Source: Baffinella frigidus
Lineage: Eukaryota; Cryptophyceae; Cryptomonadales; Baffinellaceae
NCBI GenBank assembly: GCA_026770585.1
Contig: MU647215.1
Location: 21,312-44,495, forward strand
Length of the DNA: 23,184 nt
Direction: 5' to 3'
Made by a program: the position numbers and the translations under genes. Positions within the stretch are counted from its first letter, which is position 1; every line of letters starts with the position of its first letter. Positions 5,180 to 22,406 of this stretch are shown in pieces. Below the pieces are notes generated by a model. That model did not search any database. It worked only from the letters and a program-made list of their open reading frames with translations, and was not told where the DNA came from.

Positions 5180-5650
5180 CGCCTCCGCACCAAGGTCCTC
5201 TATCGGAGTCTTTCTTCCTCTCTCCTAGTTTTTGTTTGACATACAGGCAAAATCTGGCAATTCTTTTTAAAAGAAAAATTATAAAACCGGATTTTGCCTG
5301 TCTCCCCAAAAACATCTCAAACGCCGATTTTCCCTCCATTTCCTCTCCGCCGGCACGCTCCCCAGCCACCCCTCACTCTTCACACAGGTAGTACTCAGGA
5401 GATTATCTTGCGGTTGGTGGTGCGTCGCCCGCGAAGAGCAGCACTCGTTCCGACTGCAAAGACAATTCAAACAGCTCAGCGCGTTTGAAGTTTGAGCAAG
5501 GCGATCCGGGGGAGCGTTCGAGGGGAGCCAGGCAGCGCCAAGCAGGCTGATACTCGAGGGGTTTTCCTGGGAAGGAGACTGCGCAGCCCTGGTCGAAGGA
5601 GGGGGGGCGAGGGGCTGGGGGGGGGCACTGCCGGGGTTCTCCGGCCCGGG
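5180..5650. promoter_or_regulatory. Divergent upstream region of genes A and B
   Basis: About 470 bp between the two start codons. It holds an A/T-rich core with ATTATAAAA at 5277-5285 inside an inverted repeat: ACAGGCAAAATCTGG (5244-5258) and CCGGATTTTGCCTGT (5287-5301). The core could be a shared promoter or simply another short palindromic insertion; sequence related to the right arm recurs at about 22110-22125. G-rich from 5590. Confidence 0.45.
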
Positions 5651-5794
5651 ATGTCGAAGGAGAGGAAGGAGCTGGGGTTCTCGCACAATGTGCTCGACGT
5701 GTTCTCTGTCAGGCAGGGCGCGCTGCGCATCGCGGCGATGCCCCTCGCGTCGCTGCTCTGCTTGTTCGTCGGCGTCTACCTCTGCGTCAGCGCG
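5651..5794 (+). CDS. Gene B exon 1: N-terminal membrane anchor
   Basis: 48 codons starting MSKERKELGFSHNVLDVFSV, then a hydrophobic stretch MPLASLLCLFVGVYLCVSA. The basic N-terminus suggests a type II anchor with a cytoplasmic N-terminus. The donor is GCG|GTCCTCAAAC; joining to 5987 gives CVSA|VLNYNAEDS. The frame is open further upstream, to an ATG at 5492, but that stretch is G-rich and low in complexity, so the ATG at 5651 is preferred. Confidence 0.7.
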
Positions 5795-8700
5795 GTCCTC
5801 AAACCTTTCGCCCTCAACCCTCAACCCACACCCTCAACCCTCAACCCTGCACCCTCAACCCCACACCCTACTCCCTAAACCCTGAGCCATACGCCATGAT
5901 CTCTAAATCCTGCACTCTACACTCTACACCCTACACCCTACACCACACCGTCAACCCACACCCATCAACCCTCAACCCTAAACCAGGTTCTAAACTACAA
6001 CGCGGAGGACTCGGACCAGCGAGATATGGTGACCCTCAACCCTCAAACCCGAACCCTAAACCCTAAACCATAACCCCTTAACCCTTAACCCCTAACCTTA
6101 CACCCTAGGTGGCGCGCGAGAGCACTCTCGAGATCCCATACCTGATGGACAGGGTACCAGAGAGTCCTAGCTCTTCCTCAGTCGGGTTAACTCGACGTTT
6201 TTACACCAAAAGGTCTCACACATCAGCACTGAACCCCTAGCCGTGAACCTTAGGTGGCTGGCTGCCAGAGAGTTCTAGCTCTGCCTCAGTCGGGATTACT
6301 CAACCACACCAAAAGTGGAAGGATTTGTAACAGAAAATAGGGGAGTCAACTTCCGGTCTCATCATTGCGAAGAGACCAGAGTAATTCACGCAGCGGGCTA
6401 CGAAGAGATTTTCGGGCAGGAAATGCCCGAGTTTCCGTTGCCTTATCCGTAGGAACCCTCTTATGTCCCTACGGGCTGCCTACCGTAGGGTCCTGGGTCT
6501 CATCGCTTAGGGGTTATTCGAAATTCCTTCGAAGGCCGCTGTGGAGTCAGGCAGAGCTGGCCACCAACCCTCACGGTTTGCACAAATGGTCGAATTTGGC
6601 GGTACGTAATGCCCTTGAAGACCGCCAGATTCCGGCGTCGGTTATTTTTAAAACCCCCAAAGCAAGGTGTTTTGAGTTTTAAAACTGGTACGTAATTTTC
6701 CATTTGTGCAAACCTTGAGGGCTGGTGGGGGAGTCCCACGTACGACGGTTGGCTGAACCGGGCAGGGCTTGTACAGGGCGACACCTAACCACCATCCCTC
6801 CAAGTTGGAGCAAATGGTCTTTTCCTCTTGCCTTGATGTGTACCACAGATCGTCGGAATCCGGCGACCTCCAGTACAAATCGCAGAGATTGAAAAAGGCG
6901 ATTTTCTCTCACTCTGCTGGCTGGTGGAAACCGGGAATGATTCGCACCGCGCAAGCCTGAAATTAGTCTAGAGCAATGGGGCCCTCGCATCATCACCTCC
7001 CTCTATGTCCCTACGGATTGCTTACCGTAGGGTCCTAGGTCCTATCGCTTATGGGCTATTTAAAATCCCTTCGAGCCTGAGATTAGTCTATAGCAGTCGG
7101 ACGCGGTGATGATGCGAGGTTCCCATTCCTCTAGACTAATTTCAGGCTTGCACGGAACGATCCTGCGCCTTGTGGGAATTCGCTTGTAACGCATGTGTTA
7201 AAATCTAATTCATAGTTGTCATTCGATAATTCTATCATGATATTGCAATCAAGTAATTGAGGAACACACTATTGTAGCGAAATCTCTCGCCCATCCCACG
7301 CCGTTCCTGAGGCGGGCCGTACCTCCAAGTCGGAGCAAATGGTCTTTTCCTCTTGCCTTGATGTGTACCACAGATCGTCGGAATCCGGCGACCTCCAGTA
7401 CAAATCGCAGGTATTGAAAAAGGCGATTTTCTCCCTCTCGGGCCCATCTCTTGCCGTTGCTGACGCGGACCTACCTCTTTCGTCCGCAGGTTACGAACAT
7501 GCGGCTGACGCTTCCTGCGCGCCTCGCCGCACACGCCCGATCAAAGGTCTGAGAGAGAGAGAGAGAGAAAGATGGGGGGAGGGAGGGAGGGAGGGAGAGA
7601 GAGGGGGAGAGAGAGAGCGAGCGAGCGAGAGAGAGAGAGAGATCAGCAGCGCGCCTCGCCGCACACGCCCGATCAAAGGTCAGAGGGAGAGAGGGAGAGA
7701 GAGGGAGGGAGAGAAAGAGAGAGAGGGGGGGGGGGAGAGAGAGAGGGGGAGGGAGGGAGAGAGAAAGAGAGCGAGCTTTATGGCTACCTTCCTATTACTG
7801 TCTCTCTATATTGCTAACATCAGCGCGCCTCGCAGCCCACGCCCGATCAAAGGCCACGCTCTTCCCGTGGGCGTGCAACCCTAAACTCTACACCCTAAAC
7901 CCTAAGCCCTAAGCCCTGAGTCCTGAAACCTACAACCCATTTTTTCCCCTGAAACCTAAAACTTAAAACCCTAAACCTCCCAGCCAACATGTTATCCAGG
8001 AACTCTCTCTCTCTCTCGGGTTGGACAGAGAGCGTGTCCCGCTCCACGCCGTGCTTATATACCCCAAACCCTAACCCCTAAACAACAAACAACGAATAAC
8101 AAACAACGAATGATAATGATAAAAATATACCCACTAAACCCTACACCCTTAACCCTCTGCTGCAGGCGTCATGCCTACCTGAGACGGTCTCCCTAGGGTT
8201 GGACGACAAGCTGCCCCCCCCGAACCCCAAAGCTTAAAAACTAATCCCTAAACCCCAAATTCGTAGAACTCTTCCGCAGGCGTCATGCCTCCCAGAGACG
8301 GTGCCCCTCGGGTTGGACGGCGAACGAGTCCCGCTGCACGCCGTTCCCCCAAGCCCTAATTCCTACACCCTACACCCTACACCCTACACCCAAAACCCTA
8401 ACTCCTAAACAATAAACAATAAACAATAAACCATGAGCATTGAACAATAAATAATGAATAACACACAATCGAAAACACAATAAATAATACACGATGGAAA
8501 AAACACCCACGAACCCCTGAACCCTCAACCCCTCCCCCCCGGCAGGCGTCATGCCTGCCAGAGACGGTGTCTCTCGGGTTGGACGGTGATCGAGTCCCGC
8601 TGCAAGTCGTGAGCAAGATGCGAGAAAAGCTCTCGGACCCGCGCCTCCTTCTTTACACCGGTCCGCCCTTAAACCCGAAACCCAAAACCTGAAACCCCAA

Positions 8701-11700
8701 CACCGAAACCCGAAACCCGAGACCCGAAAATCTCAATTCTCTACCCTAAACTGCGTACGCTGGGGGCCCTCAACCCTCAACCCTGAGCGAGATACGAGAA
8801 AAGTTCTCGGACCCGCGCCTTCGTCTCTACACTGGTACTGTGCCAGTACCCCGAAAGCACCCCTACACCCTAAACCCTAAACCCTAAACTCTGAAACCTG
8901 AACCCTAGACCCGAAACACCAAACACTACACCGTCGAGGAATTTGTACCCCCAAACCCTAAACCCTAAACCCCAAACCCCAAACCCCAAACCCCAAACCC
9001 TAAACCCTAAACCCTGAACCCTTATTCCTAAACTCTCAACACTAAACTCCAATAAATCCCAGCCCCATACCCCACACCCCAAACCCTAAACCCTAAACCC
9101 CAAAACACGAAACAGAGGTGCTGCATCCAATCGTGATTATGCGGCAAACCAGCGACAACATCGAATGGGCATACCACACCGCCTCGGACCCTACAGTGGT
9201 ATGCCCCCTGTACCCTACCCCCCTATACCCTGCCCACACAAAAACATCGAATGGGCATACCACACCGCGTCAGACCCTACAGTGGTATTCCCCGCACCGT
9301 CTAGGGCTTCAGGTGCCAGGATATGGCGTCAGTTGGCAGGATAGGGTGGCAGTTGGCATAGGATAAGGCCGCGGTTGGCAAGGATAATGTGGCGGTTGGA
9401 AGAGGTGCTGAATCCATTCGTGATCACGCGGCAAACCGACGACAACATCGAGTGGACATACCACACCGCGTCAGACCCTACTGTGGTATGCCCTCTATAC
9501 CCTACCCCCCTATATCCTGCCCACATGAAATTATTGAATGGACCAGGGAAGGACCGTACAACGCATGTAGAGACTACACAACCAAGTAACCCTCCTGTAA
9601 TACACCATGCCAGGCGTTCCCAGCGCTGGCGTCCCTCCGTCTCACCACCACCTTCAAAATCGAGGCTTGGATTCCAAATTCCACAGATATAGATACCTTC
9701 AAAATCTGTGGAATGTGGAATCCACAGCCTTCAAAATCGAGGCTGTGGATTCCACATTCCACAGATATATAGAGACTATACAACCAATTCCACCCTTCTG
9801 TCATACCGAAGCACCCGGGGCCAGACGTTCCCTCCTCTGGCGTATATATGCGGATTCCGCAAAGCGGATTCCGCTTTGGCGTATATACGCCTAATCCGCA
9901 AATTCTGGCGTATATATGCCTAATCCGCTGGCGTATATATGCCTAATCCGCAAATCCATCCTGAAGCATGGAGCCTAACCCATACACCCGAAACAGGCGT
10001 TCCCAGCGTTGGCGTGGGACGCAACTTGTACCCTGAACCCTGGACCATGAACCCTAAACGAAACCTGAAACAGGCGTTCCCAGCGCTGGCGTGGGACGCG
10101 TCTCTCCCGCTGAACATCACCTTTCAACTCACGCCGGGCCAGATCCTGCAGGTGACTAAGCCCTGAACCCTCAACCCCAATCCCTAAACCCTAAACCCTA
10201 AATCCCGACCCCTAAACCCTCGGGCCAGATCCTGCAGGTTTCTAAGTCGCCAACGGCGTTCGGTTTTGGGTGTAGGGTTTCGGGTTCAGGGTTTCGGGCT
10301 TGAGGTGTAGTGCTGAACCCTAAACCCGAAACCCTGAACCCTAAACCCTAAACCCTAAACCCTGAACCCTAAACCCAATCCCAAACCCTAAACCCTAAAC
10401 CCTGAACCCTAAACCCTAAACCCTAAACCCTCAACTCTGAACCCTACACCCTAAGCCCCTAGTAAACCCTACACCCCCAAACCCAGACCCCAGACTTCAA
10501 ACCCCAACACCAAACAGGCGGTAAAGGTTATCAACTCGTGACCTAAACCCTAAATCCCAAACCCTACACCCTACACTTTACACCCTGAACCCACACACCC
10601 TAAACCCATACACCCCAACCCCCGAACCCCGAACCCCGACCTCCAAACCCCGAATCCCGAACGCTGGCTGTGCACGTCATCAAATCAACTCTTGGCCCAC
10701 TCCCCAATCCCTAAAACCCAAACCTTGAACGCCGAATCCTCGACATTCAACCCCAAACCCCACACCCCGAACCCCGAACACAGGCGGTACACGTTATCAA
10801 CTCGTGGCCCAAACCCTCAACCCCAAACCCTAAATCATACATCCTAAACCCATACACCCTGAACCCTAAATCCCACTCCCCGAACGCAGTCTGTTCAGGT
10901 TATCAACTCGTGGCCGGCGCTAGACCGGCCAGTGCTCTCGTACAGACGGACTCCGGGCGTCAACAATGACGAGCGGCGTCAGGTTTGGGGTTTGGGATTT
11001 AGGGTGTAGGGTGAAGGGTGTAGGGTGAAGTGTGTGAGGTGTGGGGTGTAGGGTGAAGGGGGCAGGGTGAAGGGTGAAGGGTGGAGGGTGGAGGGTGAAG
11101 GGATATGGGTTATGGGGTTAGCGTGGCGTCAACAACGACGAGAGGCGCCAGGTAGCGCCCCCTTGGGTTCTAAATTTAGCGTTGCGCGTTTTGCGTTTAG
11201 CATTTAGCGATAGTGGTTGGCTTCCAGCGTTTGACGTTAGGGTTAAGCGCGTAGCGTTAGGGTTTAGGTTGAGGGGTTGGGATTTAGGGTTTAGGGTTTT
11301 GGGTTTGAGGTTGAGGGTTGAGGGTGTAGGGTAAAGGGTTTAGGGTTTGCGCGAGCGGCGTCAGGTTCAGGGTTCAGGATTCAGGGTGCAGGATGTAGAG
11401 TTTAGGGTGGAGCGTGTGGGGTTTAGGAATACGGGTTATGGGGTCAGGATCCTGGGTGTATGGTTCATGATGTAGGGTGTAGGTTGTATGTTTTCAGGTT
11501 TAGGATGTAGGTGTTGCGCCAGACTGGCTAGTGCTGTCGTACAGGCAAAATCCGGGCGTCAACAATGACGAAAAGCGTCAGGTGGCGCGAGGGGTTTGTG
11601 TTGGGGGTTTAGGGTGAAGGGTGAAGGGGGAAGGGGGGAGGTTGAAAAGTGGGGGGTTTAGGGATATGGGTTATGGGGATAGGGTTTAGGGTTTAGGGTG

Positions 11701-12043
11701 ATCCCACGTTACGGTCAAGCTCGAACACTCACAGTTGTTTTACAGTAAACCTTTCTCTCTCTCCCTACAGTAAATCTTTCACTGTCTCCCTTCAGTAAAT
11801 CTCTCACTGTCTCCCTACAGTAAATCTCTCTCCCTCTCGCGCAGGTCTGGAACGTGGATGCGACGTTCTCGGGGGAGGTGCGCGCGTACAAGTTGGATCA
11901 CTCACTGTTACTTTACAGTAATTATGAAAAAATAGCTGTCTTACATGAAATCTCTCTCTCCCTCCCTCCCTCCCTCTCTCTTCCTCACTCTTTCTCTTCC
12001 TCCCTCTCTCTCTCTCTCTCTCTGTCCCACCCTGTTTTCTCTT

Positions 12044-12074
<31 letters not shown>

Positions 12075-15000
12075 GTCCCACTCTCTCTCTCTCTCGCTCT
12101 TACCCTCTCTCTCTCTCTCTCTCTCGCAGGTTTGGAACGTGGATGCGACGTTCTCTGGGGAGGTGCGCGCGTACAAACTCGACCACTCACCCGTCAACGG
12201 AACCCTCTCGGTCCTCAACCCTAAACCCTGAAACATAAACCCTAAACCTTTAACCCTCAAATCTAAATACACGCCCCACACACAAACTCGAGCATTCAGA
12301 CGTCAACTGCACACTCGCAGCCCTAAACCCCAAGCCCTGAACCCTAAACTCTACACCCTTCACCCTACACCCTACACCCTAAACCCTAAACTCTAAACTC
12401 TAAATACACGCCCTACTATCAAAGTTCGAGCACTAAGATGTCAACGGGACGCTCGCGGTCTCTACACCCTGCACCTTACACCCTACACCCTACACCCTAC
12501 ACCCTACACCCNNNNNNNNNNNNNNNNNNNNNNNNNNNNNNNNNNNNNNNNNNNNNNNNNNNNNNNNNNNNNNNNNNNNNNNNNNNNNNNNNNNNNNNNN
12601 NNNNNNNNNNNNNNNNNNNNNNNNNNNNNNNNNNNNNNNNNNNNNNNNNNNNNNNNNNNNNNNNNNNNNNNNNNNNNNNNNNNNNNNNNNNNNNNNNNNN
12701 NNNNNNNNNNNNNNNNNNNNNNNNNNNNNNNNNNNNNNNNNNNNNNNNNNNNNNNCCCTACACCCTACACCCTACACCCTACGCCGTACACCCTACACCC
12801 TACACCCTACACCCCACACCCTACACCCTACGCCCTACGCCCTACACCCTACACCCTACACCCTACACCCTACACCCTACACCCTACACCGTACATCCTG
12901 GTCTCGTGACCACTCTCGTGACCTTGCCTCGTGACCACAGGCCTCGTGACCACAGGTCTCGGGACCTTGCCTCGTGACCGCATCTCTCGTGACTGTTCTT
13001 CGTGACCAACCTTATGACCAGCTCGTGACCAGCTCGTTGCCACAGACCTCGTGACCACCGCGTGACCACAGGTGTCATACGTCTCCAAAGTACTGATCGA
13101 GACGCGCTTCGACACTGTGGACGTACCCGCGACGGTCCTAACCCAAAACCGAACACACTAACCCATGAACCCTAGACTCTGAGCTCTAAACCCGAAACCC
13201 GGAACCCAGAACCCGAAACCCGGAACCCGAAACCCGAAACTCGAAATCCTAAACCCTAAACCCGAAACCCGGAACCCGGAACCCGGAACCCGGAACCCGG
13301 AACCCTGAACCCAAAATTTGGAACCCGAAACCCGAAACCCAAAAATTGGAACCCGAAACCCGAAACCTTGACGAACTACGGACTTCGCGACGTTGAAAGG
13401 ATTTGAAAGGTCGTAAACGTTTTACGACGTTTCAAATTTTAAAACGTTTTTAAACGCACCGTTTCGAGTTTCCTCGTACAAAGGAGAATTTCCAAGAGGG
13501 CCATTCGGCAAATCGAGAACGCCAAGTTCTACCGGAATAGCTCTAAACACTGAGCTTCACCCCCTCATCCCTAATCTCCAATCCCCAACCCCTAAACCCT
13601 GAACCCTACACCCTACACCCTACACCCTAAACCCTAAACCCTAAACCCTAAACCCTAAACCCTAAACCCTAAACCCTAAACGCTAATCCCCAATCCCCAA
13701 ACCCTAAACCCTCATCCCCACCCTAACCGCTAAACCTCAAACCTTGGACCCTACACCCTAAATTAGACAACACCGTAAACCTTGATCCCTACCACAGGTG
13801 ATCGAGTCCACAGCCTTCACGGATACAGTCCATCTAAACGATTTTTACTAGAGTAGTATCCATTGCTTTGGATTGCAATCATTTACCCGCCCAGAAATCC
13901 TTGCGAAAAGGAGATAGGTCGCTGCTAAGTGGAAACCCTGAACCCTGAACCCTGATCTCTGACAAAGGTGATCGAGTCAGACGCCGCGTCCCCGCACTAC
14001 AACGTCATTTCGGAGCACACCAGAATCCGTCCTGATTTATGCTATTCTAAGCCTTGGTTATATGACTAAAAAGCATACCCACCCTACCTTCGGCGTTGGA
14101 AGCCTTAAGAAGAGGGACAGATTCTGGCGTGTTCCGAAATTATCCTCTTGCAAGGCTAATAGCAGAATAAAGACTTTAGCCCGAAATTGATGTCAACTTT
14201 GGCCTGTAGTAAAGATTTCACGATTTTATCGCAGCTCGATTTTTTTAAGCAGATTCTGGAGCTGAAGGTCAAATCTCGAGGATCTGCGCTTTCAGATTTG
14301 AAAAAGGATGAAATTTAGGGGTGAAATTTGGCGAAATACACCGAACTTCCATTTATGACTTATTTATTTGGCCTTGCAAGAGGATATGTCGTGCTCCCAA
14401 ATTAACCCTCAACCCCAAACGCTCAATAAGGTGATCGAGTCAGACGCCGCGTCCCCGCGCAAACTACACCCGAAACCGCCAGCCTTTATTCCCGATCTTC
14501 CTCATCCCTACACCCGAAACCTTACCTACTGATTCTCTACCAAGTAACGCCCTAACCCCCCCCCCAAAAGGTGATCGAGTCAAACGCCGCGTCGCCACGC
14601 TACAACGGTGGCCAGCCTCATCTCAAACAGGTTTCGAGCCTGCACCACACAACGCACCACAACAGGATTTCACGAATAACCCGTAAGTGGAGAATACATA
14701 GGATCCTACGGTAGGCAATACCGTAGGGACATAGGCTGGTCCTACGGATATCGTGACGGCGGCCAGCCTCATCTCAAACAGGTTTTGATCCTGGCACCCA
14801 CTCGATCAAATATCGGCGAATAAGACGTCTTGGTACCAAGAGATTCTCAGTTAGTACCGATAAAACCAATGGGCCGATCTGCGAAGCCCACCGTGTGGCC
14901 CATCCTCTCTGTGCTTTTCAACTACCACTCCACACAGCGGGCTACGAAGGGATTTCAGCCTAAATCGGGCCACTTTTCCGTTACCTTATCCGTAGGAACC

Positions 15001-18000
15001 CCCTTATGCCCCTACTGGTTGCCTACCGTAGGGTCCTAGGTCTTATCGCTTAGCGGTGTTCACAATTCCTTCGAAGTCTGCTGTGTGGTCACGGTGAAGG
15101 CCTCCACTCAACCCTCAACGCTGATCGTACCCTCAACCCTCAACGCTGATCCCTAAACCCTAAACCCTGACCTCTAAACCCTCAACTCCAAACTACCAAC
15201 CCCAACCCCCACACCCTACCCTAGGTCTCCGGCGAGGTCGTTTCGGGGCTGTGCGACCTCAACCCTCAACCCTGAACTCTATACCCTCAACCCCCACCTC
15301 CAAACCCTAAACCCCCCAGCCTACACCACAAACCCCGGACCCCACAACCCAAATCCCCAAACCCAAACCCCCAAATCCCCAAACCCAAACCCTTAACCCC
15401 AAAACTCGCACCAGGTATCTGGCGAAACGGGGCTGTGTGACGCGCTGTTTGACGTGGTGGGCGAGTGCCGGGACACGGTAGCCTCAACCCTACACCCTAC
15501 ACCCTACACCCTACACCCTACACCCTACGCCCTACACCCTACACCCTACACCCTACGCCCTGCGACGCGCTGTTTGACGTGGTGGGCGAGTGCCGGGACA
15601 CGGTAGCCTCAACCCTACCCCCCCACACCTTACGCCCCACACCCTACACTCTACACCCTACACTCTACACCCTACACCCTACACCCTACACCCTACACCC
15701 TACGCCCTACAACCTACACCCCACACCCTACACCCTACACCTTACACCCTACACCCCACGCCCTAAACTCTGCGCCCTGAACCCTAAGAGCACGCGTACC
15801 TCAAGCTAAACTCTCAACTCTAAACCCTATACCCTAAACCCTAAACCCTAAACCCTAAACCCTAAGCGCACATGCAAATCAAGGTAAACCCGAAACTCTA
15901 AACCCTAAATTCGAAATCTTAAACCTTAACCCCAAATCCCTAATCTCGAAACCCGAAACCCCAAACCCGAAACCCGAAACCAGATCGCTGTCCCGCGGAT
16001 CCACCGCATCGTTCCCACGGAGTGGAAGGTACCCACGCCAGGCTCTTGGATAGGGTATTCCAACCGCGTTCTTGGAGCCATTAGTGCGTTTTTCGAGCCG
16101 TTTTTGCGGTCGTTTGTCCACTTGTGGCGCAACAAAATTGACTTTTGAAATACCCTCCGAAGGACCCTCCCTGGCATCAGCCCTCCGAGGCGGACCGAAT
16201 CGAGGCTGGCGCATGCGCCAATTCCTCGGGCGGCACCTTCGAAAACGAATGTGCCACCCGAGGACGTGGCGCCGAACAATCGTCGATTTGGTCCGCCTCG
16301 CAGGGCTGGTGGTGCTTTTAGCTCTCAGGGTCCTCCCTAGGACTCCGTTCTCACATATCTCTTGAACTCTGGCCTCTCTCTCGGCGCCCCTACCACGCCA
16401 GAGTGGAGGAGGGGGTAAATTTGTTCAAACCGTATGTGGATACGGTATTGACTTTTGAAAACAACTGCCTTCAAGGGGAAATTGACTCTCGGCGCCACGG
16501 AGGTGCGTTGTGCGGTCGTGATGGCGTCCCCGAGGGCCGACTCACGGAACCTTGGGGCACTGTCCGTCGAGGTGCTGCCACCGTGTGTTGCCTCCCCGAT
16601 GCCAGTGGCGTGTGTCGCCCGCGCAGAACGCCCTGCTCAATTGCTTTTGGCAACAAAAATTACTACACGATTTGCTCATAAAAGTAATAGTAAAGCGTTT
16701 GTGTAGTAAATTGCGTTGCACCAAAAGCAATTAATTAATACGTGTATGGAGATTAACTCCGACACAGCTTCGGTGGGGGTCACACATGGCGGCCGTCTCT
16801 CGGCGCCCCGGAGGTGCGTTGTGCGGCGGTGATGGCGCGCGTCCCTAAGGGCCGACTCGTGGAACCTTGGGGCACTCTCCGTCGAGGTGCTGGGGCACTG
16901 TCCGTCGAGGTGTTGACTTTTGAAAACAACTGCCTTCAAGGGGAAATTGACTCTCGGCGCCACGGAGGTGCGTTGTGCGGCGGTGATGGCGTCCCCGAGG
17001 GCCTCGTGGAACCTTGGGGCACTCTCCGTCGAGGTGCTGGGGCACTCTTCGTCGAGGTGCCTCGACACCCTACACCCTATACCCTACACCCCACACCCTA
17101 CACCCTACACCCTACACGTGTGTTGCCTCCCCGAGGCCTGTGGCGTGTGTCGCCGACACACTCACCTGCCCAACGATCGACTCCGGATCGGTGCACGAAG
17201 GCGCGAGCGTGAAGCCAGTCCCCGAACGGGAGCCTTTCGCCTTGTACGATCCGTACACGCTGCTCCCTGGCCTGCGAGAGGAACATGCAATAAACTTCAT
17301 CAACGTTCAGCAGAACGCCCTACTCAGACACAGCTTCGGTGGGGGTCATACATGTCGGCCGTGTTGGTGGTAAGAACGGTCTCTCTCTCTCTCTCCAGGG
17401 TTTAGGGTTCAGGGTTCAGGGTTGAGGGTTTAGGGTTGGATCGGATCGTTGGCATGCGCCGTTGGACTACGGTACTCCGTACCAACGAGGAAATTCTTGT
17501 TCCAAGTTCTGGGCACACGCATTTGTACCACGAAAACGAAACGTGGCGTTCTGAAATTCCCTCTAATGACCTGGCGTAGCTAGGTGTGCGTCGCGTGTTA
17601 TGAGCTCTCACAGGCTGCCCCGCCGTGCGCACACTGTCCTGTCCTCCCGCCGTTTTGCCGCACCATTTTGACTGCCATTGTGACCGCCGTTTCACCCGCC
17701 TGTTGACCAGTTTAATCGAGAAACGACCCGAAAGTAGAGGGTAGTTTAGCCTACAGGTTCCCTACCGTAGGAAGAGGGGCTCCTAAGACCTGGTCCTAGG
17801 AGACCTACCTCCTACGGTAGGCCTGGTCCTCGGAGATCCGTAGGCTGGACTACCCTAATTCCGGGTCGTTTCCCTTTGAAGTTTGACAATCAGTTTGACC
17901 AAAGCAATGATGCGGTCAACAGGTGGCGTGGAAAGGAGCACCGCAGGATGCGTTTGAGGCGATGCGCGCCATGGCCCCGCACTCCTTCCCGGTCCTTGTC

Positions 18001-21000
18001 GAGGTGTGCTTTACTCCAATTTATCCCGATTTTTTCATCATTAGGCGCCCCCCCCCCCCTCTCCGAAGGTGCGTGATATGCCGCGAGATGACTCAGGCGC
18101 GACAGCACACATCATTTTACACCCCTTTCACTGGATCATCGTTCAACACCTTTTTTTCTTCGTTGGAAGGTGCGCGACATGTAGCAGCCGCGGCCGAACA
18201 CATCATTTAACACCCCTTTTCCTCCGCACACTCATGATTCGACGCCCCGTTTTTCACCTTGAAAGGTGCGCGACATGTCGCAGCCGCGGCCGCACGCCCC
18301 TCTCATAATCATTCAACGCCCCATTTTCTCCGCTAGATCATCATTTAACGCCCCTTTCCTCCGTTGGAAGGTGCACGACATGTCGCAACCGTGGCCGTAC
18401 GCCCCTCTCATGATCATTCAACGCCTCCTTTTCTCCGCACAACCATCATTTAACGCCCCATTTTTCACTTTGGAAGGTGCGCGACATGTCGCAGCCGCGG
18501 CCGTGCACATCATTAAACACCCCTTTTCCTTCGCAGAATCATTATTTAACGCCCCATTTTTCCCTTCGGAAGGTGCGCGACATGTCGCAGCCGCGGCCGT
18601 ACATCCCCGCAAAAAAATCATTTCACACCCCTTTCCCATCATTCAACACCCCTTTCCCATCATTGATGGCCCCTTTTCCCCACTTTGGAAGGTGCGCGAC
18701 ATGTCGCAACCGCGGCCCTACGCGCCGATAATGTTCGCGTTCGGGTACCCGATGTTCATCGGGTTCGGGCTGACCCTCGGGGCCTTCGTCCTCCTCTTCC
18801 TCTGGTACTGTCTCAGTCTTTTCAGGCTGACACATTTGGTGCGCCCGGGCGCTTTTCCGCACCAAAGTTGACGGATTTGTACCGGACTCCTGGCATGTCA
18901 ACTTGAGAATAGTCGGTTAACGCGATGCTCATCGGGTTCGGGCTGACCCTCGGGGCCTTCGTCCTCCTCTTCCTCTGGTAACTAGCCCCCGGTAGTCCCT
19001 GAGGTATTGGCCTCTGTTAGCAAGCGTGCTTCCTCGGCGCTCTCATCCTCAATTTCCTCTGGTAACTGACCTCGGATGGCCCCTACTTGCCCTCGGGGCC
19101 TTCGTCTTCCTCTTCCTCTGGTAAGTGGGGTTATCTAGCCACACAGTGGGCTTCTAGTGTTTCGGATTTGAATTTGGGGTCGGATTCTGGGGTGTTACGT
19201 GGCCAAATGTACCCCAGAACATCCGCAAAGTTAATTATCTCTGGGCAAGTTGACTTTTGTTGAAAGGTCCGTGGTCCACCGTGTGGTTGGGCTAACCAAT
19301 TTGGTGAGCCCGGGCGCTTTTCCGCACCAAAGTTGACGGATTTGTACCGGACACCCGGCATGTCAACTTGAGAATAGTCTGTTAACGCGATGCTCATCGG
19401 GTTAGGGCTGACCCTCGGGGCCTTCGTCCTCCTCTTCCTCTGGCACTCCCTCTTCTCCTCTTCTCCTCTGTTACACTGCGGTACAGGGGTACCTCGCTCG
19501 TCTGAAACTACCCCCTCCTAGGACCGCTGTAGGGTCCTAGCTAGGCACAGGCCTACTGTAGGATCCTAGGGGGTGGCACGTTGTTATGAGCGAGGTACCC
19601 CTGTACCACCTCGTCAACATCAACGGCACGGTGTTGTGCTCTGCTTTTCTGCGCCGTACCACGCAAGAGTGTAACACTGACCTGGGAAAACAAGTCAGTT
19701 CACACGGAATTTGTATCAACTTCCCGAAATTTCGATTTTTCTCTGGGGAGAATGTTGACTTATGAACTTTTGAAAATAGCCAGATCTGGCTATTTTTCCT
19801 GCACGGCACTCTGTCTTCCACTCTTGCGTGGTAGGCAACACCGTGCGCTAACCTCCGCTAAAAGTCCCAATGCAATCCCGTGCGCTGACCCCCTCAACCC
19901 CCTAACCCTGAACCCTCTAAACCTCAACTCCCCAGATGCCGGCTGAGGTTCCACCTAACCCTAAACAGCAACGCCCTACCGTCGGCAGTACCATACGCTG
20001 AACGCCGCTGAAAACTCTAAACTCTAATCCATATCCCGCCAGGTGTGGGCTACGGTGCCATCTCGTGAACATCAGCGCGCACCCTAAACCTCTTGAACCC
20101 TAACCCCCCTCCCCCCCCTCCCCCCCCTCACCACCCTAAACCCCCTAAACCCCCTACAATCTACAAGAGATCAAACTGCTCAATCCCCTGAAAGCCCCTT
20201 ACCCCTAAACGCCGTCAACAATAAACACGGGTGCGGTCTGCGGTGCCATCTCGTGAACATCAACGCGTGCGAGAACCAGGGCTTCCCCCCGATGTTCTGC
20301 CGGAGCAATACCATATGGTGTCCCGTGAGTGACGATCACCCCTTAGTGGCGAGTAACATCCAAGTGGCGAGCATCCCTTCGTGGCGAGTATTCCTCAAGT
20401 GGCGAGCTACTCCTTAAGTGGCGAGTAGTCCTTAAGTGGCGAGTCGCCTTACTCGATCCTCCGCAGGCCCTTCATGTCCTGATCCCTGAACCCCAACTTC
20501 TCAGGTGTGGGCTGCGGTGCCATCTCGTGAACATCAACGCGTGCGAGAACCAGGGCCTCCCCCCGATGTTCTGCCGGGGCAATACCATATCGCTTCAGTG
20601 GCGAGTAGCCCTTAAGTGGCGAGTATCCCTTAAGTGGCGAGTAGCCCTTGAGTGGCGAGTAGCCCTTAAGTGGCGAGTATCCCTTAAACTCGAAATCCGT
20701 CCCGTGCATGTGCGCAACGAGCGCGCATGCTCTGGCACGGATTTCGTGAAATCCGTGTTAAACCCTTCATTTCCTAACCCCTAGCCCCGAAAACACAGGT
20801 GTGGGTTGCGGTGCCATCTCGTGAACATCAATGCGCGCGAGAACCAGGGCCTCCCCCCGATGTTCTACCAGGGGATGCGCCGCTTCCGCGGATGGTAGCG
20901 ACTTTACATTAATGCCGTTAGGTCGACTGTTTTCGGGGTAAGCTCTTATACAAGAGCTGCACGCTTCCGCGGGTGGTAACGTGACGTAGAAAATTAGGTC

Positions 21001-21990
21001 GGCTGTACTCGGGGTCAGCTCCTATCCCTTAAGTGGCCAGTAGGCTCATACGCCCTACCGTTGGGCCCTGGGACCTGCCTAGGACCTCTTGCGGGTCAAT
21101 TTTGACCGGCTGGCCACTTAAGGGATAAGAGCTGCACGCTCCCGCGGGTGGTAACGTGGCCTAGGAAATTAGGTCGACTGTACTCGGGGTAAGCTCCTAT
21201 AAGAGCTGCACGTGGGTGGTAGCGACTTTACATTGATGCCGTTAGATCGACTGTTTTCGGGGTAAGCCCTTATCCCTTAAGTGACCAACGGGTGCATAAT
21301 CGCCCGTGGAAGTCCTAGGCAGGTCCTACGGCCCTACGGTAGGGCGTCTGAGCCTACTGGTCACTTAAGGGATAAGAGCTGCACGCTTCCGCGGGTCGTA
21401 ACGTGACGTAGAAAATTAGGTCGGCTGTACTCGGGGTCAGCTTCTATCCCTTAAGTGGCCAGTAGGATCATACGCCCTACCGTAGGACCCTAGGACCTGC
21501 CTAGGACCTCATGGCAGTCAAATTTGACTGCCTGGCCACTTGCGGGATAATTATCCCTTAAGTGGCGGACGAGCGATTAATCGCCCTAACTCGCCCTAGG
21601 CAGGTCCTAGGGCCCTACCGTAGGGCGTATGAACCTACTCGCCACTTAAGGGATAAGAGCTGTACGTGCCCTCGGTGGTAAGGGCACTCAGGGGACAAGC
21701 CCCGTGTAGGACGCGTCGATCCGTGCATTTTTCACTTACTAATAAAGTCAATAAGCGTCACTACGCCTGGAGGTCTAGGGCCTCTCCGAAATGTTCTTCG
21801 AGGGTGTGCGCCGCTTCCGCACCACAGGGGTACCTCGCTCATACGAAAGCGCTTCCCCCTCCAAGACCCTACGATAGGCCTATGCCGAGGGCCCTGTGGT
21901 GGTCCTAGCTAGGGGGGGGGGGGGCAAATTCTTATGAGCGAAGCACCCCTGTACATGTCCTTTCAGAAGGATTGGTGGGCCTGGCACTGA
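5651..21990 (+). CDS. Gene B: unrecognised protein with membrane segments near both ends, many small exons
   Basis: Hand-assembled. Firm exons: 5651-5794, 5987-6028, 6109-6153, 7490-7546, 8546-about 8658, 9116-9195 or 9403-9482, 10074-10151, 10890-10982, 12130-12210, 13072-13134, 14571-14630, 15415-15477, 15984-16028, 17923-18003, 18692-18804. Weaker exons: about 17116-17369, the tail exon about 20799-20890, 21779-21829 and 21967-21990. Most firm exons are phase 0; I give roughly 500 residues as an estimate. Residues about 30-48 form a membrane segment; a second lies in the exon at 18692. The region between has NxT sites in exons 10074 (NIT) and 12130 (NGT) and scattered cysteines, which fits a lumenal or extracellular domain. 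No family was recognised. Exon choice among duplicated copies is uncertain in several places, and an exon or part of one may be missing between 16028 and 17923. Confidence 0.6.
5810..6107. repeat. CCCTAAA/CCCTCAA tracts in the first gene B introns
   Basis: Introns 5795-5986 and 6029-6108 are almost purely degenerate CCCTAAA, CCCTCAA, CCCTACA. Here the plus strand, which is the coding strand, reads CCCTAAA. Confidence 0.9.
5987..6153 (+). CDS. Gene B exons 2 and 3 (5987-6028, 6109-6153)
   Basis: Exon 2 encodes VLNYNAEDSDQRDM (AG|GTT ... ATG|GTGACC). Exon 3 encodes VARESTLEIPYLMDR (AG|GTG ... AGG|GTACCA). The 80-bp intron between them consists almost only of CCCTAAA/CCCTCAA repeats. Both are phase 0 and multiples of three. 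Confidence 0.68.
6390..6545. mobile_element. Family D element (D1)
   Basis: Ends GCAGCGGGCTACGAAGAGAT and TTCCTTCGAAGGCCGCTG; core GCCTACCGTAGGGTCCTGGG. Close relative of D2 at 14931-15088. Confidence 0.8.
6798..7437. repeat. Near-identical 115-bp direct repeats (6798-6912 and 7323-7437)
   Basis: Both run from CTCCAAG through GGAGCAAATGGTCTTTTCCT to GGCGATTTTCTC with only a few differences. They flank the palindrome at 6937-7166. The second copy ends about 50 bp before exon 4. Confidence 0.9.
6937..7166. mobile_element. Large palindrome with a nested family D element
   Basis: Left arm about 6937-6998 (GCAAGCCTGAAATTAGTCTA...CCTCGCATCATCACC) pairs with right arm about 7108-7166. The centre (7003-7076) is a partial family D element, so one element seems to have entered another. 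Confidence 0.78.
7490..7546 (+). CDS. Gene B exon 4 with two edge copies
   Basis: 19 codons, VTNMRLTLPARLAAHARSK, acceptor CCGCAG|G, donor AAG|GTCTGA leading into a GA microsatellite. The 3' part of the exon is repeated at 7649-7678 (again followed by GT) and 7823-7852 (followed by GC). After the last copy an open stretch ATLFPWACNPK follows AG at 7851-7852; it could be the start of a further exon. Confidence 0.62.
7547..7780. repeat. GA/GGGA microsatellite interrupted by an exon-edge copy
   Basis: Long purine-only tract (GAGA, GGGA, GGGG) broken at 7640-7680 by the copy of the exon 4 3' edge. It lies at the start of a gene B intron. Open frames crossing it are Arg/Glu-rich artefacts. Confidence 0.9.
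8166..8660 (+). CDS. Gene B exon 5 with earlier partial copies
   Basis: Copies start after AG at 8166, 8280 and 8546, and a 5'-truncated one lies at about 8012-8056. Each begins ASCLPETV and reads LGLD; the copy at 8546 is the longest, continuing DGDRVPLQ, VVSKMREKLSDPR and LLLYT, and its probable donor is ACCG|GTCCGC near 8658. Earlier copies decay into CCCTAAA repeat after 45 to 66 bases. A copy of only the 3' half follows at 8785-8840 (SEIREKLSDPRLRLYTG). Differences between copies include several synonymous changes, so the frame has been under selection. Confidence 0.6.
8660..9115. repeat. CCCTAAA/CCCGAAA intron tracts with a 3' half-copy of gene B exon 5
   Basis: Degenerate CCCGAAA, CCCTAAA and CCCCAAA tracts surround the exon 5 half-copy at 8785-8840. 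No other gene signal. Confidence 0.85.
9116..9195 (+). CDS. Gene B exon 6, copy 1
   Basis: Phase-1 exon reading EVLHPIVIMRQTSDNIEWAY then HTASDPT, donor ACA|GTGGTATG. An equivalent full-length copy lies at 9403-9482 and a truncated one at 9243-9281. Either full copy joins LLLYT|EVL upstream and PT|AFPAL downstream in frame, so the two could be mutually exclusive exons or one may be a relic. Confidence 0.55.
9403..9482 (+). CDS. Gene B exon 6, copy 2
   Basis: Reads EVLNPFVITRQTDDNIEWTY then HTASDPT, same length, phase and splice signals as the copy at 9116. Ten codons differ, about half of them silent. The intron start is duplicated with it (GTGGTATGCCC at 9196 and 9483), so the copied unit of about 287 bp includes exon and donor-side intron. 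Confidence 0.55.
9706..9764. repeat. Perfect 24-bp inverted repeat with an 11-base loop
   Basis: Arms 9706-9729 and 9741-9764 are exact reverse complements and would form a strong hairpin. The loop sequence TTCAAAATCGA also occurs at 9653-9663. The hairpin sits in a gene B intron between two copies of the segment AGAGACTA-ACAACCAA (about 9569 and 9770), each followed by a copy of the exon 7 acceptor edge. Confidence 0.85.
9838..9955. repeat. Short tandem repeat built on GGCGTATATATGCCTAATCCGC
   Basis: About four imperfect units with the core GGCGTATATATGC and ATCCGC, partly palindromic (TATATA centre, GCGGATTCCGC). It lies in the intron before gene B exon 7, next to a decayed copy of that exon's acceptor edge at about 9822. 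Confidence 0.75.
10074..10151 (+). CDS. Gene B exon 7
   Basis: 26 codons, AFPALAWDASLPLNITFQLT then PGQILQ, with an N-glycosylation-type NIT site. Acceptor AACAG|G, donor CAG|GTGACT. Partial copies of the 5' edge lie at 9614 and about 9996, each after CAG; a copy of the 3' edge with a GT donor lies at 10221-10237. The exon has edge copies on both sides. Confidence 0.65.
10152..10889. repeat. CCCTAAA tracts between gene B exons 7 and 8
   Basis: Telomere-like repeat with three exon 8 acceptor copies. A short stretch in the opposite orientation (GGGTTTCGGGTTCAGGG) lies at 10263-10309. Confidence 0.88.
10890..10982 (+). CDS. Gene B exon 8 with edge copies on both sides
   Basis: 31 codons, SVQVINSWPALDRPVLSYRR then TPGVNNDERRQ, donor CAG|GTTTGG. 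Upstream 5'-edge copies: 10518 (AVKVINS), 10667 (AVHVIKS), 10784 (AVHVINSW). Downstream 3'-edge copies with donors: 11125-11151, about 11350-11364, and 11516-11581 (APDWLVLSYRQNPGVNNDEK then RQ|GT). In all of these the protein frame is better preserved than the bases. Confidence 0.63.
10983..11740. repeat. TTTAGGG-oriented tract in gene B, against the usual orientation
   Basis: After exon 8 the intron reads TTTAGGG, GTGAAGGG, GTGTAGGG on the coding strand, up to about 11700, broken by three exon 8 3'-edge copies. It is the main exception to the orientation rule in gene B. Confidence 0.88.
11741..11844. repeat. Repeated splice-acceptor-like unit before gene B exon 9
   Basis: Several copies of a roughly 29-bp unit of the form CTCCCTACAG|TAAATCT, each a pyrimidine run followed by CAG. 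The last one runs into the true acceptor-like CGCAG|GTCTGG at 11843-11845. Confidence 0.75.
11845..11910 (+). CDS. Gene B exon 9, upstream copy
   Basis: Reads VWNVDATFSGEVRAYKLDHS after CGCAG, then diverges from the downstream exon at 12130. It has no clear donor, so it may be a relic or an alternative first part of the exon. Bases match the downstream copy closely, with several silent differences. Confidence 0.4.
11951..12128. repeat. CT/CCCT microsatellite
   Basis: Pyrimidine-only tract (CTCTCT, CCCTCC) directly upstream of the acceptor CTCGCAG at 12123-12129. It is an extreme polypyrimidine tract. Ser/Leu/Pro-rich frames through it are artefacts. Confidence 0.92.
12130..12210 (+). CDS. 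Gene B exon 9
   Basis: 27 codons, VWNVDATFSGEVRAYKLDHS then PVNGTLS with an NGT site; donor TCG|GTCCTC. Downstream 3'-edge copies lie at 12284-12319 (KLEHSDVNCTLA) and about 12419-12457 (one inserted base), each followed by CCCTAAA or CCCTACA repeat. Confidence 0.65.
12512..12755. other. Assembly gap (244 N)
   Basis: Run of N flanked on both sides by CCCTACA repeat, so the gap probably hides more of the same repeat. Open frames crossing it are meaningless. Confidence 0.99.
12899..13071. repeat. CTCGTGACCACAG minisatellite ending at a splice acceptor
   Basis: About a dozen imperfect units of CTCGTGACC with ACAG in several of them. The array ends in GACCACAG|GTG, the acceptor of the next exon, so the unit seems to have been copied from the acceptor region. 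Confidence 0.82.
13072..13134 (+). CDS. Gene B exon 10
   Basis: 21 codons, VSYVSKVLIETRFDTVDVPA then T, acceptor CCACAG|G, donor ACG|GTCCTA. No copy of the exon itself was seen, only of its acceptor. Phase 0 at both ends. Confidence 0.63.
13135..13797. repeat. CCCGAAA/CCCTAAA tract between gene B exons 10 and 11
   Basis: Mostly CCCGGAA, CCCGAAA, then a clean CCCTAAA run at 13625-13680. A non-repeat island at 13371-13555 contains AACGTTTTACGACGTTTCAAA-like inverted motifs and no exon that I can support. Confidence 0.8.
14004..14430. other. Unique intron sequence between copies of the exon 11 start
   Basis: A/T-richer stretch (14004-14400). CCTCTTGCAAGGCTAATAG (about 14143) and GGCCTTGCAAGAGGATATG (about 14371) form an inverted pair, and TTCCGAAATTA/CTCCCAAATTAACC recur, suggesting an old palindromic element of about 250 bp. 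No exon supported. Confidence 0.5.
14571..14630 (+). CDS. Gene B exon 11
   Basis: 20 codons, VIESNAASPRYNGGQPHLKQ, acceptor AAAAG|G, donor CAG|GTTTCG. Upstream 5'-edge copies at 13798 (VIESTAFTD), 13968-14003 (VIESDAASPHYN|GT) and 14431 (VIESDAASPRK). A downstream 3'-edge copy at 14758-14781 carries CAG|GTTTTG. The two 3' copies flank a palindromic insertion. Confidence 0.62.
14634..14757. mobile_element. Insertion flanked by copies of the exon 11 3' edge
   Basis: Contains a family D-like core GGATCCTACGGTAGGCAATA. GGTGGCCAGCCTCATCTCAA with CAGGTTT lies on its left and GGCGGCCAGCCTCATCTCAA with CAGGTTTT on its right. Confidence 0.55.
14931..15088. mobile_element. Family D element (D2)
   Basis: Ends CACACAGCGGGCTACGAAGG and CTTCGAAGTCTGCTGTGTGG; core GCCTACCGTAGGGTCCTAGG. 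Most intact member of the family here. Confidence 0.82.
15415..15477 (+). CDS. Gene B exon 12
   Basis: 21 codons, VSGETGLCDALFDVVGECRD then T, acceptor CCAG|GTA, donor ACG|GTAGCC. A 5' copy at 15225-15257 (VSGEVVSGLCD) and a 3' copy at 15561-15602, followed by the same intron start GGTAGCCTCAACCCTAC, flank it. Introns on both sides are CCCTACA repeat. Confidence 0.63.
15478..15983. repeat. CCCTACA tract around an exon 12 3' copy
   Basis: Long CCCTACACCCTACA runs (15488-15560, 15625-15780), then CCCTAAA and CCCGAAA to 15980. The same CCCTACA unit borders the N gap at 12460-12890. Confidence 0.9.
15788..15883 (+). CDS. Possible tiny gene B exon, two copies (15788-15805, 15866-15883)
   Basis: Two 18-base units between CCCTAAA tracts read EHAYLK and AHMQIK; the second is followed by GTAAAC, a good donor. 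Acceptor AG placement is off by one or two bases from the preferred frame, so phase is unresolved. If real, it lies between CRDT and IAVPRI. Confidence 0.3.
15984..16028 (+). CDS. Gene B exon 13
   Basis: 15 codons, IAVPRIHRIVPTEWK, acceptor CCAG|A (not G), donor AAG|GTACCC. Conserved-looking basic and Trp content; no duplicate seen. Confidence 0.58.
16441..17056. repeat. Direct repeats of a GC-rich block inside a gene B intron
   Basis: The block TTGACTTTTGAAAACAACTG... CTCTCGGCGCCACGGAGGTG ... GTCCGTCGAGGTGCTG occurs at about 16447-16575 and 16915-17040, with a partial at about 16796-16912. Units carry GGAG|GTGCGTTGTGCGG and GTCGAG|GTGCTG, both acceptor-like. Frames read VRCAAVMASPR but no definite exon could be placed. 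Confidence 0.7.
16640..16760. mobile_element. Family I MITE-like insertion (I1), left end shortened
   Basis: Arms TTGCTTTTGGCAACAAAAAT-like and TTGCGTTGCACCAAAAGCAA, ending TGGAGATTAACTCC. It splits a copy of the candidate exon at 17116; the undivided site is at 17326/17327 (CTACTCA|GACACAGC). Confidence 0.78.
17116..17369 (+). CDS. Gene B candidate long exon, boundaries unresolved
   Basis: Frame reads CVASPRPVACVADTLTCPTI, then PEREPFALYDPYTLLPGL and REEHAINFINVQQNALL. A partial copy at 16571-16640 plus 16761-16790 differs mainly by silent changes in this frame (CTA/CTG, CAT/CAC), which supports it. The acceptor may be near 17056 or within 17120-17140, and the donor may be GTAAGA at 17370, although that leaves a phase mismatch with the next exon. 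Confidence 0.42.
17719..17873. mobile_element. Family C element (C2)
   Basis: Ends GAAACGACCCGAAAGTAGAG and ATTCCGGGTCGTTTC, with GGGTAGTTTAGCC and GGACTACCC inside and a CCTACGGTAGG core. Confidence 0.8.
17923..18003 (+). CDS. Gene B exon before the last membrane exon
   Basis: 27 codons, VAWKGAPQDAFEAMRAMAPH then SFPVLVE, acceptor ACAG|G, donor GAG|GTGTGC. Phase 0. The upstream intron includes the C-family palindrome at 17719-17873. Confidence 0.64.
18069..18720. repeat. Ladder of seven copies of an acceptor plus exon start
   Basis: GTG of the exon start follows an AAG at 18069, 18170, 18266, 18371, 18477, 18573 and 18692 (spacing 96 to 119). Each unit has ATTTAACGCCCC, a pyrimidine run, GGAAG, then GTGCGCGACATGTCGCAGCC. 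Only the last unit continues into the full exon. This could give seven competing acceptors. Confidence 0.85.
18692..18804 (+). CDS. Gene B last membrane-segment exon
   Basis: Encodes VRDMSQPRPYAPIMFAFGYP then MFIGFGLTLGAFVLLFLW, a hydrophobic segment of about 25 residues. The exon end CTCTG|G is repeated at about 18974, 19058, 19121 and 19443; at 19121 it is followed by GTAAGT, the best donor in the region. Cutting after CTCTG leaves phase 2, which fits the tail exon frame (G, then CGLRCHLVNIN). Without splicing, the copies at 18974, 19058 and 19121 would stop at TAA just after Trp; the 18692 exon itself reads on through TGGTAC. Confidence 0.66.
18834..19443. repeat. 145-bp direct repeat carrying the membrane exon end
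   Basis: 18834-18978 and 19299-19443 are near-identical, from ATTTGGTG through CGCACCAAAGTTGACGG and GTTAACGCGATGCTCATCGG to CTCTTCCTCTGG. Further partial copies of the exon end lie between them (about 19021-19062, 19091-19122). Confidence 0.85.
19482..19606. mobile_element. Family A palindromic element (A2)
   Basis: Terminal inverted repeat TACAGGGGTACCTCGCTC and its complement at the right end; the inside holds CTAGGACCGCTGTAGGGTCCTAG. The right end abuts CACCTCGTCAACATCAACGG, a copy of the tail exon (HLVNIN). Non-coding MITE-like size, about 125 bp. Confidence 0.8.
19626..19846. mobile_element. Palindromic element within a tail-exon copy
   Basis: Outer arms GCACGGTGTTG and CAACACCGTGC, inner arms TACCACGCAAGAGTG (near 19656) and its complement (near 19819). 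It starts directly after AACATCAACG of the HLVNIN copy. Contains a perfect 24-bp palindrome, AAAATAGCCAGA plus its complement, at 19773-19796. Confidence 0.72.
19885..20160. repeat. Weak CCCTAAA tract and poly-C in the tail region of gene B
   Basis: Short CCCTAAACCCCCT and C-rich runs around the tail-exon copy at 20042. Also a threefold GTGCGCTAACC/GTGCGCTGACC/TACGCTGAACGCCGCTGAAA motif at 19841-20015. Confidence 0.7.
20042..20898 (+). CDS. Gene B cytoplasmic-tail exon, four copies
   Basis: Copies after AG-like sites at 20042, about 20230, 20505 and 20799 share CHLVNINA and then ENQGLPPMF. The last (20799) is longest: YQGMRRFR, then GW and a stop at 20896-20898, or a donor at GATG|GTAGCG. 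Some copies are cut off by CCCTAAA-like sequence or the 18-bp minisatellite. The frame fits phase 2 from the membrane exon. Which copy is used cannot be told from the sequence. Confidence 0.5.
20341..20690. repeat. 18-bp minisatellite, two blocks (20341-20446, 20597-20690)
   Basis: Units of AGTGGCGAGTAGCCCTTA with minor changes, about six in the first block and five to six in the second, each block directly after a tail-exon copy. The unit matches the terminal inverted repeat of the family B elements (CCCTTAAGTGGC). Confidence 0.88.
20881..21680. repeat. Tandem array of about 75-bp units with four embedded family B palindromes
   Basis: Units read GCTGCACGCTTCCGCGGGTG|GTAACGTG... TTAGGTCG.CTGT...CTCGGGGT.AGCTCCTAT. 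The first 20 or so bases copy the tail exon 3' edge with a GT. Palindromes TATCCCTTAAGTGGCCA...TGGCCACTTAAGGGATA lie at 21023-21127, 21270-21374, 21445-21550 and 21551-21656. Unit junctions at about 20950 and 21200 are without an element. Confidence 0.82.
21779..21829 (+). CDS. Gene B penultimate exon
   Basis: After TCTAG, reads GLSEMFFEGVRRFRTTG, homologous to the tail-exon copies but with an acidic, less decayed sequence (EMFFEG versus PMFCRG). Cutting at GGG|GTACCT inside the left end of element A3 and rejoining at TTTCAG|AAG gives a phase-0 junction. Confidence 0.5.
21825..21953. mobile_element. Family A palindromic element (A3), nearly the whole of a candidate intron
   Basis: Ends ACAGGGGTACCTCGCTCAT and ATGAGCGAAGCACCCCTGT, core CAAGACCCTACGATAGG. 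The donor GT lies in its left terminal repeat at 21830-21831, and an acceptor TTTCAG lies just outside at 21961-21966. Confidence 0.8.
21967..21990 (+). CDS. Gene B last exon and stop
   Basis: Reads KDWWAWH then TGA at 21988-21990. It is the first plausible stop after the tail exon, in phase 0 with the cut inside A3. A precise excision of A3 would instead give RTYMSFQKDWWAWH with the same stop. Confidence 0.45.
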   Translation, partial: KDWWAWH

Positions 21991-22406
21991 AATCCATTCG
22001 ACCAGAGATACATGCACACATCCTCCTCGGGAGAGAATGAATGCACCCTTCCTCTACACGCTCATACGAATTCTCAAGTCAACGGCGTCAGATCTGACGC
22101 CTTACGATAGATTTTGCCTGTCCTCAAAAAAGAGTTTTGCCAAAAGTAGCAGGCTCCCAGAGAAGTTGACTTTTGAGATTGACCCCCTTCTCAGGTCTCG
22201 CGAAAGTCCGTGCAAGGGGATCATGTCCATGTTAAGGGTTGAGGAGGAAGTTAACATGTCCATGTTAAGGGTTGAGGAGGAACCGTGAACATGTCCATGT
22301 TAGGGGTGAAGGAGGAAGGGTTATGGCGATAAGTGGACCCTACTAAGCAGACCGCACCCAGTGGATCACTCGCACTCTGAGTTGCCACCGTTGCACGCGT
22401 TGACGT
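21991..22406. repeat. Downstream region with a 33-bp triple repeat
   Basis: Three copies of ATGTCCATGTTAAGGGTTGA plus GGAGGAA at about 22223-22317. GATTTTGCCTGTCC at 22110-22123 matches an arm of the inverted repeat upstream of gene B. No gene supported. Confidence 0.75.

Follow-up and report, generated by a model that had tools for sequence, protein, structure and literature searches.

Introduction

Introners are intron-creating transposable elements. New introns have also been traced to local duplication: in the potato RdRp gene, a tandem duplication across the intron 1/exon 2 boundary is described as the one event that gave rise to a new intron (PMC4974935), and in Drosophila genes new introns are described as products of the tandem duplication of AG/GY proto-splice sites within coding exons (PMC2891723). 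The locus analysed here is a 23,184-nucleotide stretch of the genome of the cryptophyte Baffinella frigidus (assembly GCA_026770585.1, contig MU647215.1, here C843, positions 21,312 to 44,495), referred to below as the window and numbered from its first letter. It contains an intron-rich gene, gene B (5651..20898, plus strand), in which copies of exon edges, mostly with a splice site, lie in the introns next to the exons that they resemble.

On balance these copies are probably the remains of numerous small local duplications, retained where they did no harm to splicing, a reading that we hold with slightly better than even confidence. An original prediction, made from the sequence of the window, had proposed that the splice junction itself is the copied unit.

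Sequence and methods

Gene B has about 17–18 short exons and GT-AG introns. 16 exons placed by landmark strings, together with E6b, were used; E13 and E15 are uncertain. GT directly follows the acceptor AG at 10 of the 15 internal or last exons (E6b and E15 excluded). The predicted protein is about 470 amino acids long; it gave no Pfam match over the cut-off (one lay below it) and, with its first 323 amino acids as the query, no PDB match. Rfam yielded no usable match. The introns consist largely of degenerate CCCTAAA/TTTAGGG arrays (telomere-like heptamers) in both orientations, for example at 5811–5984 and 10982–11150, and the exact heptamers occur at about 6 per kb of window.

Every gene B exon was searched for in both strands of the entire window, and 43 local plus-strand copies were then aligned to their own exons; 38 were stacked on the junction for comparison of splice sites and flanks. 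The aligned regions were picked by hand from the exon-versus-window matches and from weak copies spotted by eye, and the 38 stacked pairs, the 52 identity pairs and the 43 tandem-unit comparisons were picked likewise. 11 weak copies (9826, 10525, 10684, 11352, 11716, 12420, 13798, 15244, 18069, 19032 and 19603) were kept for their position and junction. Two matches of E15 (16623 and 16756), which do not obey the polarity reported below, were omitted before counting since the boundaries of this exon are uncertain; non-local matches (such as a 14-nt match of E3 at 4364) and short minus-strand matches were omitted as well. All counts of copies and pairs are non-independent because there are copies of copies.

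Results and discussion

The 43 copies lie around 10 of the 17 gene B exons and are separated by 77 to about 1200 nt from those that they resemble (Table 1). Chance similarity was rejected for the 32 with E ≤ 0.001 (best 1.8e-28); the remaining 11 are weaker. All are in direct orientation and within 1.2 kb of their source, as local tandem duplication requires, and the search of both strands of the window returned no minus-strand exon match with E below 0.05. No local plus-strand copy of E1, E2, E3, E10, E14 or E16 was found in the exon-versus-window search.

The copies show a marked polarity. Of the 25 upstream copies, 20 begin no more than 8 nt from the exon start and none extends to the exon end, and downstream copies come within 3 nt of the exon end in 17/18, one of the 18 being the whole exon E6b; in the strong subset of 32 the figures are 16/17 and 14/15, respectively. 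AG or GT was retained in 34 of the 38 copies compared, with GC (3) or GG (1) in the others. At least one exon end is missing in 42/43, and whole-exon copies are thus nearly absent (1 versus 42). The rule of the original prediction, namely acceptor plus exon start upstream and exon end plus GT downstream, is borne out by these counts. Its examples were recovered within about 2 nt, except for that at 10667, which corresponds to a weak copy at about 10663–10697. Its statement that almost every gene B exon is involved was correct as to the existence of copies but too wide in extent.

As a null model, random tandem duplications were simulated on the exon–intron layout of gene B. One-edge classes with the observed polarity arose: a tandem duplication that has one of its breakpoints in an exon is enough to produce it, and the junction need not be the copied unit. 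With unit length the simulated number of whole-exon copies per one-edge copy varied from 0.18 to 0.82, whereas about 1 per 42 was observed, a deficit such as splicing would impose.

The favoured sequence of events would be as follows. In a genome with introns rich in telomere-like heptamers and minisatellites, errors of replication or repair would duplicate units about 75 to 470 nt long, often in tandem. A unit with one end in an exon and the other in an intron would leave the exon intact and add either an acceptor with an exon start upstream or an exon end with a donor downstream. Lacking a second splice site, such copies would be skipped by splicing and persist; duplications within an exon would be purged because they alter the protein, and whole-exon copies because splicing would include them. 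Serial copying would produce families. The tandem step is seen in the youngest cases. Tandem units extend over their whole length at E12 (125 nt, identity 0.91), at E4 (132 nt, 0.83) and in a TCP-1 gene on another contig, C6 (79 nt, 0.82), and in the acceptor array of E17 most repeats are whole units, with intron parts 0.69–0.84 identical. For the older copies we infer a common origin with these, and for their survival the splicing filter.

Hairpins at the exon breakpoints were not supported (26 breakpoints, three window sizes, p 0.08 to 0.34), and neither was a split point common to start and end copies (4/8 families against 2.9 expected, p 0.30). By eye, the signature of AGGT-type intron gain, a copy directly at the intron terminus, was not found: the copies sit within introns and have an AG or GT of their own.

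Table 1. Exon copies and related duplications in the window (E, exon of gene B; weak, among the 11 weaker copies)
Feature	Coordinates	Strand	Details
E4 (7490-7546) end, two downstream copies	7649..7852	+	Identity 30/30 (then GT) and 28/30 (then GC)
E5 (8546-8660), upstream copies	7983..8344	+	8012 (interior), 8166-8205, 8280-8344
E5 end, downstream copy with GT	8784..8834	+	
E6 (9116-9198) end, downstream copy with GT	9243..9284	+	Tandem period 86 nt
E6b, whole-exon copy of E6 with both splice sites	9403..9485	+	72/83 identical
E7 (10074-10151) start, upstream copies	9614..10022	+	9614, 9826 (weak), 9997
E7 end, downstream copy with GT	10221..10237	+	
E8 (10890-10982) start, upstream copies	10518..10809	+	10518, 10663 (weak), 10784
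E8 end, downstream copies with GT	11125..11581	+	11125-11151, 11352-11364 (13 nt, weak), 11516-11581
E9 (12130-12210) start, upstream copy	11845..11905	+	6/6 differences synonymous
E9 end, two downstream copies	12282..12457	+	Followed by GC, then GT; second weak
E11 (14571-14630) start, upstream copies	13798..14460	+	13798 (weak), 13968, 14431
E11 end, downstream copy with GT	14756..14781	+	
E12 (15415-15477) start, upstream copy, weak	15225..15257	+	
E12 end, downstream copy	15561..15602	+	41/42 identical; clean 125-nt tandem duplication, 0.91 over unit
E17 (18692-18804) start, six upstream copies, first weak	18069..18602	+	Tandem array, ~100-nt units including intron
E17 end, four downstream copies	18913..19442	+	Ends 18977, 19061 (weak), 19120, 19442
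E19 (last exon, 20799-20898) start, upstream copies	20043..20579	+	20043, 20231, 20505
3' flank, repeated direct duplications	20899..21666	+	
Gene A exon end (1726) and downstream copy (1557)	1555..1761	-	37/38 identical, divergent right after GT

Splice junctions and the duplicated region

Coverage was measured with local direct repeats at 36 bits or more, counting unmasked bases only. Exon edges (429/871 bases) and exon interiors (322/645) are covered alike. Intron sequence from which exon copies had been removed is covered to 26–30% (269/898 near exons, 1704/6492 far from them), and outside gene B the values are 609/4100 at positions 1-5650 and 1246/2183 (57%) downstream of the gene. By this measure duplication is general. 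Some duplications in the 3' flank hold the last coding bases together with 3' sequence and thus lie away from any splice junction. Local copies were also found for 55/117 of the 30-mer probes that span a junction, for 38/146 of those in introns near exons, for 533/1422 farther off in introns (exon copies included) and for 290/1202 outside the gene.

For the stacked pairs, ungapped identity is 0.79–0.97 over the first 20 exon bases, 0.82–1.00 at intron positions 1–3 and 0.32–0.61 at positions 4–20. Gapped identity of intron positions 3–14 averages 0.62, compared with 0.48 for unrelated junctions. Exon-side homology is above background in 38/45 acceptor pairs and 26/29 donor pairs, and the tandem-unit test gave z ≥ 2 in 11/19 exon-end comparisons, in which the unit includes the exon part. 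The seven pairs with an exon identity of at least 97% have the highest mean intron identity (0.79 versus 0.55–0.64 in the other classes).

Three groups of observations weigh against the duplication reading. The first is the sharpness of the homology edge. Identity in gene B is 0.82 at intron position 3 but 0.53 one position further on, homology there often ends 3 nt or less from the junction, intron-side homology is above background in 21/45 acceptor and 8/29 donor pairs, and in exon-start comparisons, which use the intron part only, z ≥ 2 was reached in 5/24. Intron identity follows exon identity weakly (rho 0.18, p 0.21, 52 pairs, among which exon 1 on contig C94 was aligned without gaps and hence scores low), so that decay with age is a weak explanation of the edge. 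The second is the excess of exon-derived copies. 30-mer probes no farther than 20 nt from an exon edge have local copies more often than exon-interior probes (66/115 versus 31/82), and of 51 repeat pairs in gene B 26 touch an exon, 18 involve exon copies only and 7 are intron-only (33, 22 and 12 of 67 at 28 bits); far more intron-only pairs were expected from the simulation, with 4.5–5.8 such events per one-edge event. Detection is biased against introns; masking (4801/15248 gene bases) and the faster loss of intron homology explain at most part of the shortage, and what is left over suggests that exon-derived copies were retained or refreshed, or that copying favoured exons. The third concerns codon positions. 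Variable sites among the copies are distributed 15/8/30 over positions 1/2/3, and in view of this third-position excess (30/53, p 0.0004 versus one third) they are not simply neutral debris from a single moment.

Under the duplication reading, the homology edge would most likely lie where the working exon ceases to be under purifying selection; intron sequence would be replaced quickly, and gene conversion from the working exon would keep renewing the exon-derived parts. An explanation that we regard as improbable is that exon edges were copied up to the splice junction, for example from splicing intermediates or during the repair of breaks at junction RNA–DNA hybrids. It would account directly for the step in identity, the preponderance of exon-derived pairs and the higher yield of edge probes. 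Three individual cases also suit it: the E17 copies ending at 18977 and 19442 share 95 nt of left intron (~95%) yet both end at the donor; E6b ends at the acceptor, although its homology runs 56 nt into the downstream intron; and the gene A pair ends at GT. Young copies, however, cross the junction, as in the L021 triplicate described below, at E12, in the TCP-1 gene on C6 and in five of the seven HSP70 copies. Duplication also affects introns and the 3' flank, and the simulation shows the polarity to be explicable without such a mechanism. The wider case, in which edges were copied up to the junction in a process coupled to splicing or to transcription-linked breaks, or were kept like the working exon by conversion reaching exactly to the junction, and in which the introns would be a dated fossil record of the exons, we consider unlikely. 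The recount of the repeat pairs lowered our confidence in the duplication reading and slightly raised that in three rivals and in this junction-dependent case.

The proposal that the junction is the copied unit therefore fares unevenly. Equal coverage of exon edges and interiors speaks against it; the lower yield of interior 30-mer probes, and an edge sharper than decay predicts, speak for it. Of the local mechanism suggested along with it, local copying stands, whereas centring on the junction is not required.

Divergence of the copies and possible use

Differences between copies and exons also favour the third codon position (29/19/59; 59/107 at the third). The most likely source of this bias is serial copying from an exon under selection, helped by conversion and fast intron turnover; gene conversion or an origin from diverged alleles gives such a bias too. 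Diverged alleles or tandem paralogs, acting as the source by unequal exchange or template switching, would leave exons alike and introns not, as the sharp intron boundary has it, and both third-position counts are in keeping with this, as are copies 8166-8205 (5/5 differences synonymous) and 11845, which differ from their exons only synonymously. We nevertheless find this origin decidedly improbable. E5, the sole exon searched genome-wide, had no match reported elsewhere in the 382,457,362-base assembly in a DNA search, the downstream copies of E17 are nearly identical in the exon while the sequence just after the donor is mostly different, and serial snapshots of an exon under selection yield the same bias.

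The copies might also be in use as alternative or decoy splice sites under selection. The retention of AG or GT in 34/38 copies, the coding-type divergence of some and the completeness of both E6 and E6b fit this proposal, to which we give little credence: at least one exon end is missing in 42/43, and copies 9614, 19385 and 21770 have diverged with no sign of coding constraint (0–2 synonymous versus 3–9 nonsynonymous differences).

E6 and E6b are complete 83-nt exons with AG and GT that differ at 11 sites, 6 of them nonsynonymous. Judged from their sequences, they could be mutually exclusive exons, since inclusion of both would shift the frame, and they would be the sole complete alternative-looking pair in gene B.

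Occurrence at other loci

Of 18 further stretches sampled from the genome, six could be read at least in part; local direct repeats at 36 bits make up 16–29% of the unmasked bases there, compared with 35% in the window. In two of the stretches sampled, L011 and L021, there are families of exon-end-like sequences with GT after them, the exons being judged by eye and not by homology. The youngest case is that of L021, where three 79-nt tandem units (7593, 7672 and 7751; unit identity 0.97 and 0.87, exon-end-like part 28/28) extend past GT into the telomere-like intron. At L011 2071-2760, six sequences end in GT after a Gln codon, with the frame kept by eye and one 6-nt gap; their Arg codons vary (CGC CGC, CGA AGG, CGG AGG), which looks like coding constraint, and it is possible that these are genuine repeated exons.

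In a TCP-1 chaperonin gene on contig C94 (PF00118), with exon peptides chosen by eye, 4/18 exon segments have local copies at E ≤ 0.01. There are five such copies: two upstream with the exon start, one upstream from the interior and two downstream with the exon end; the first exon has an additional, weaker downstream copy. The TCP-1 regions on C6 and C39, inspected for repeats only, hold a 79-nt tandem copy of an exon end and five acceptor-plus-start sequences, respectively. Among HSP70 genes (PF00012), 1/8 exon segments is accompanied by copies; the four on the upstream and the three on the downstream side all show the expected polarity. Their alignments extend over 26, 23, 12 and 4 nt of upstream intron and 40, 31 and 2 nt of downstream intron, i.e. 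12–40 nt in 5/7 copies and only 2–4 nt in 2/7. Copy density is higher in gene B than in the conserved TCP-1 and HSP70 genes sampled.

The partial copies thus recur outside the window, on five other contigs (C350, C94, C6, C39 and C226). This recurrence, and copies that differ by 0 to about 25%, many with flanks of their own, make an assembly artefact scarcely credible, in spite of the contig gap in gene B (N at about 12512-12755).

The extension to gene A, on the minus strand of the window, held for one exon-end pair (1726 and 1557), in which the choice of the working exon is a judgement, and for a CTGCAG-bounded family at 915, 667, 424 and 355. Several repeats, some direct and some inverted, with motifs resembling CCCTTAAGTGGC follow the stop codon of gene B (20918-21666). 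An inverted-repeat family of ~95–135 nt beginning with TACAGGGGTACCTCGCTCAT was found at 681-774, 19480-19607, 21824-21954, 22405-22500, 22520-22655 and 22994-23116 and also in L017 near 5416; its start has no exact match in viral contigs. A similar element near the C94 TCP-1 gene starts where one repeat copy ends.

Comparison with known systems

In a limited search of the open-access literature, judged on titles and the openings of abstracts, no genome with such a pattern was recognised. If the splicing filter operates as proposed, this genome would be a natural record of local duplication in which the duplications tolerated by splicing can be read and dated, and in which the raw material for intron gain and exon shuffling could be observed as it arises. 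If the sharp edge and the exon-derived excess are instead mechanistic, they would be a sign that splice junctions are recognised by some process of copying or conversion.

Like introners, the copies occur in an intron-rich setting with inverted-repeat elements nearby; unlike them, they are fragments of the adjacent exon rather than of a dispersed element family, E5 being matched only locally. The potato RdRp gene, as described (PMC4974935), has the 3' splice site and exon start present twice, as around gene B exons, but gene B has dozens of copies at many exons, apparently silent within existing introns. The duplications described for Drosophila (PMC2891723) likewise take in a splice-site motif with the surrounding region, whereas the reading frame of gene B is unchanged. 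The pattern in gene B is probably a dense form of the known junction-crossing tandem duplication, with a sharp edge.

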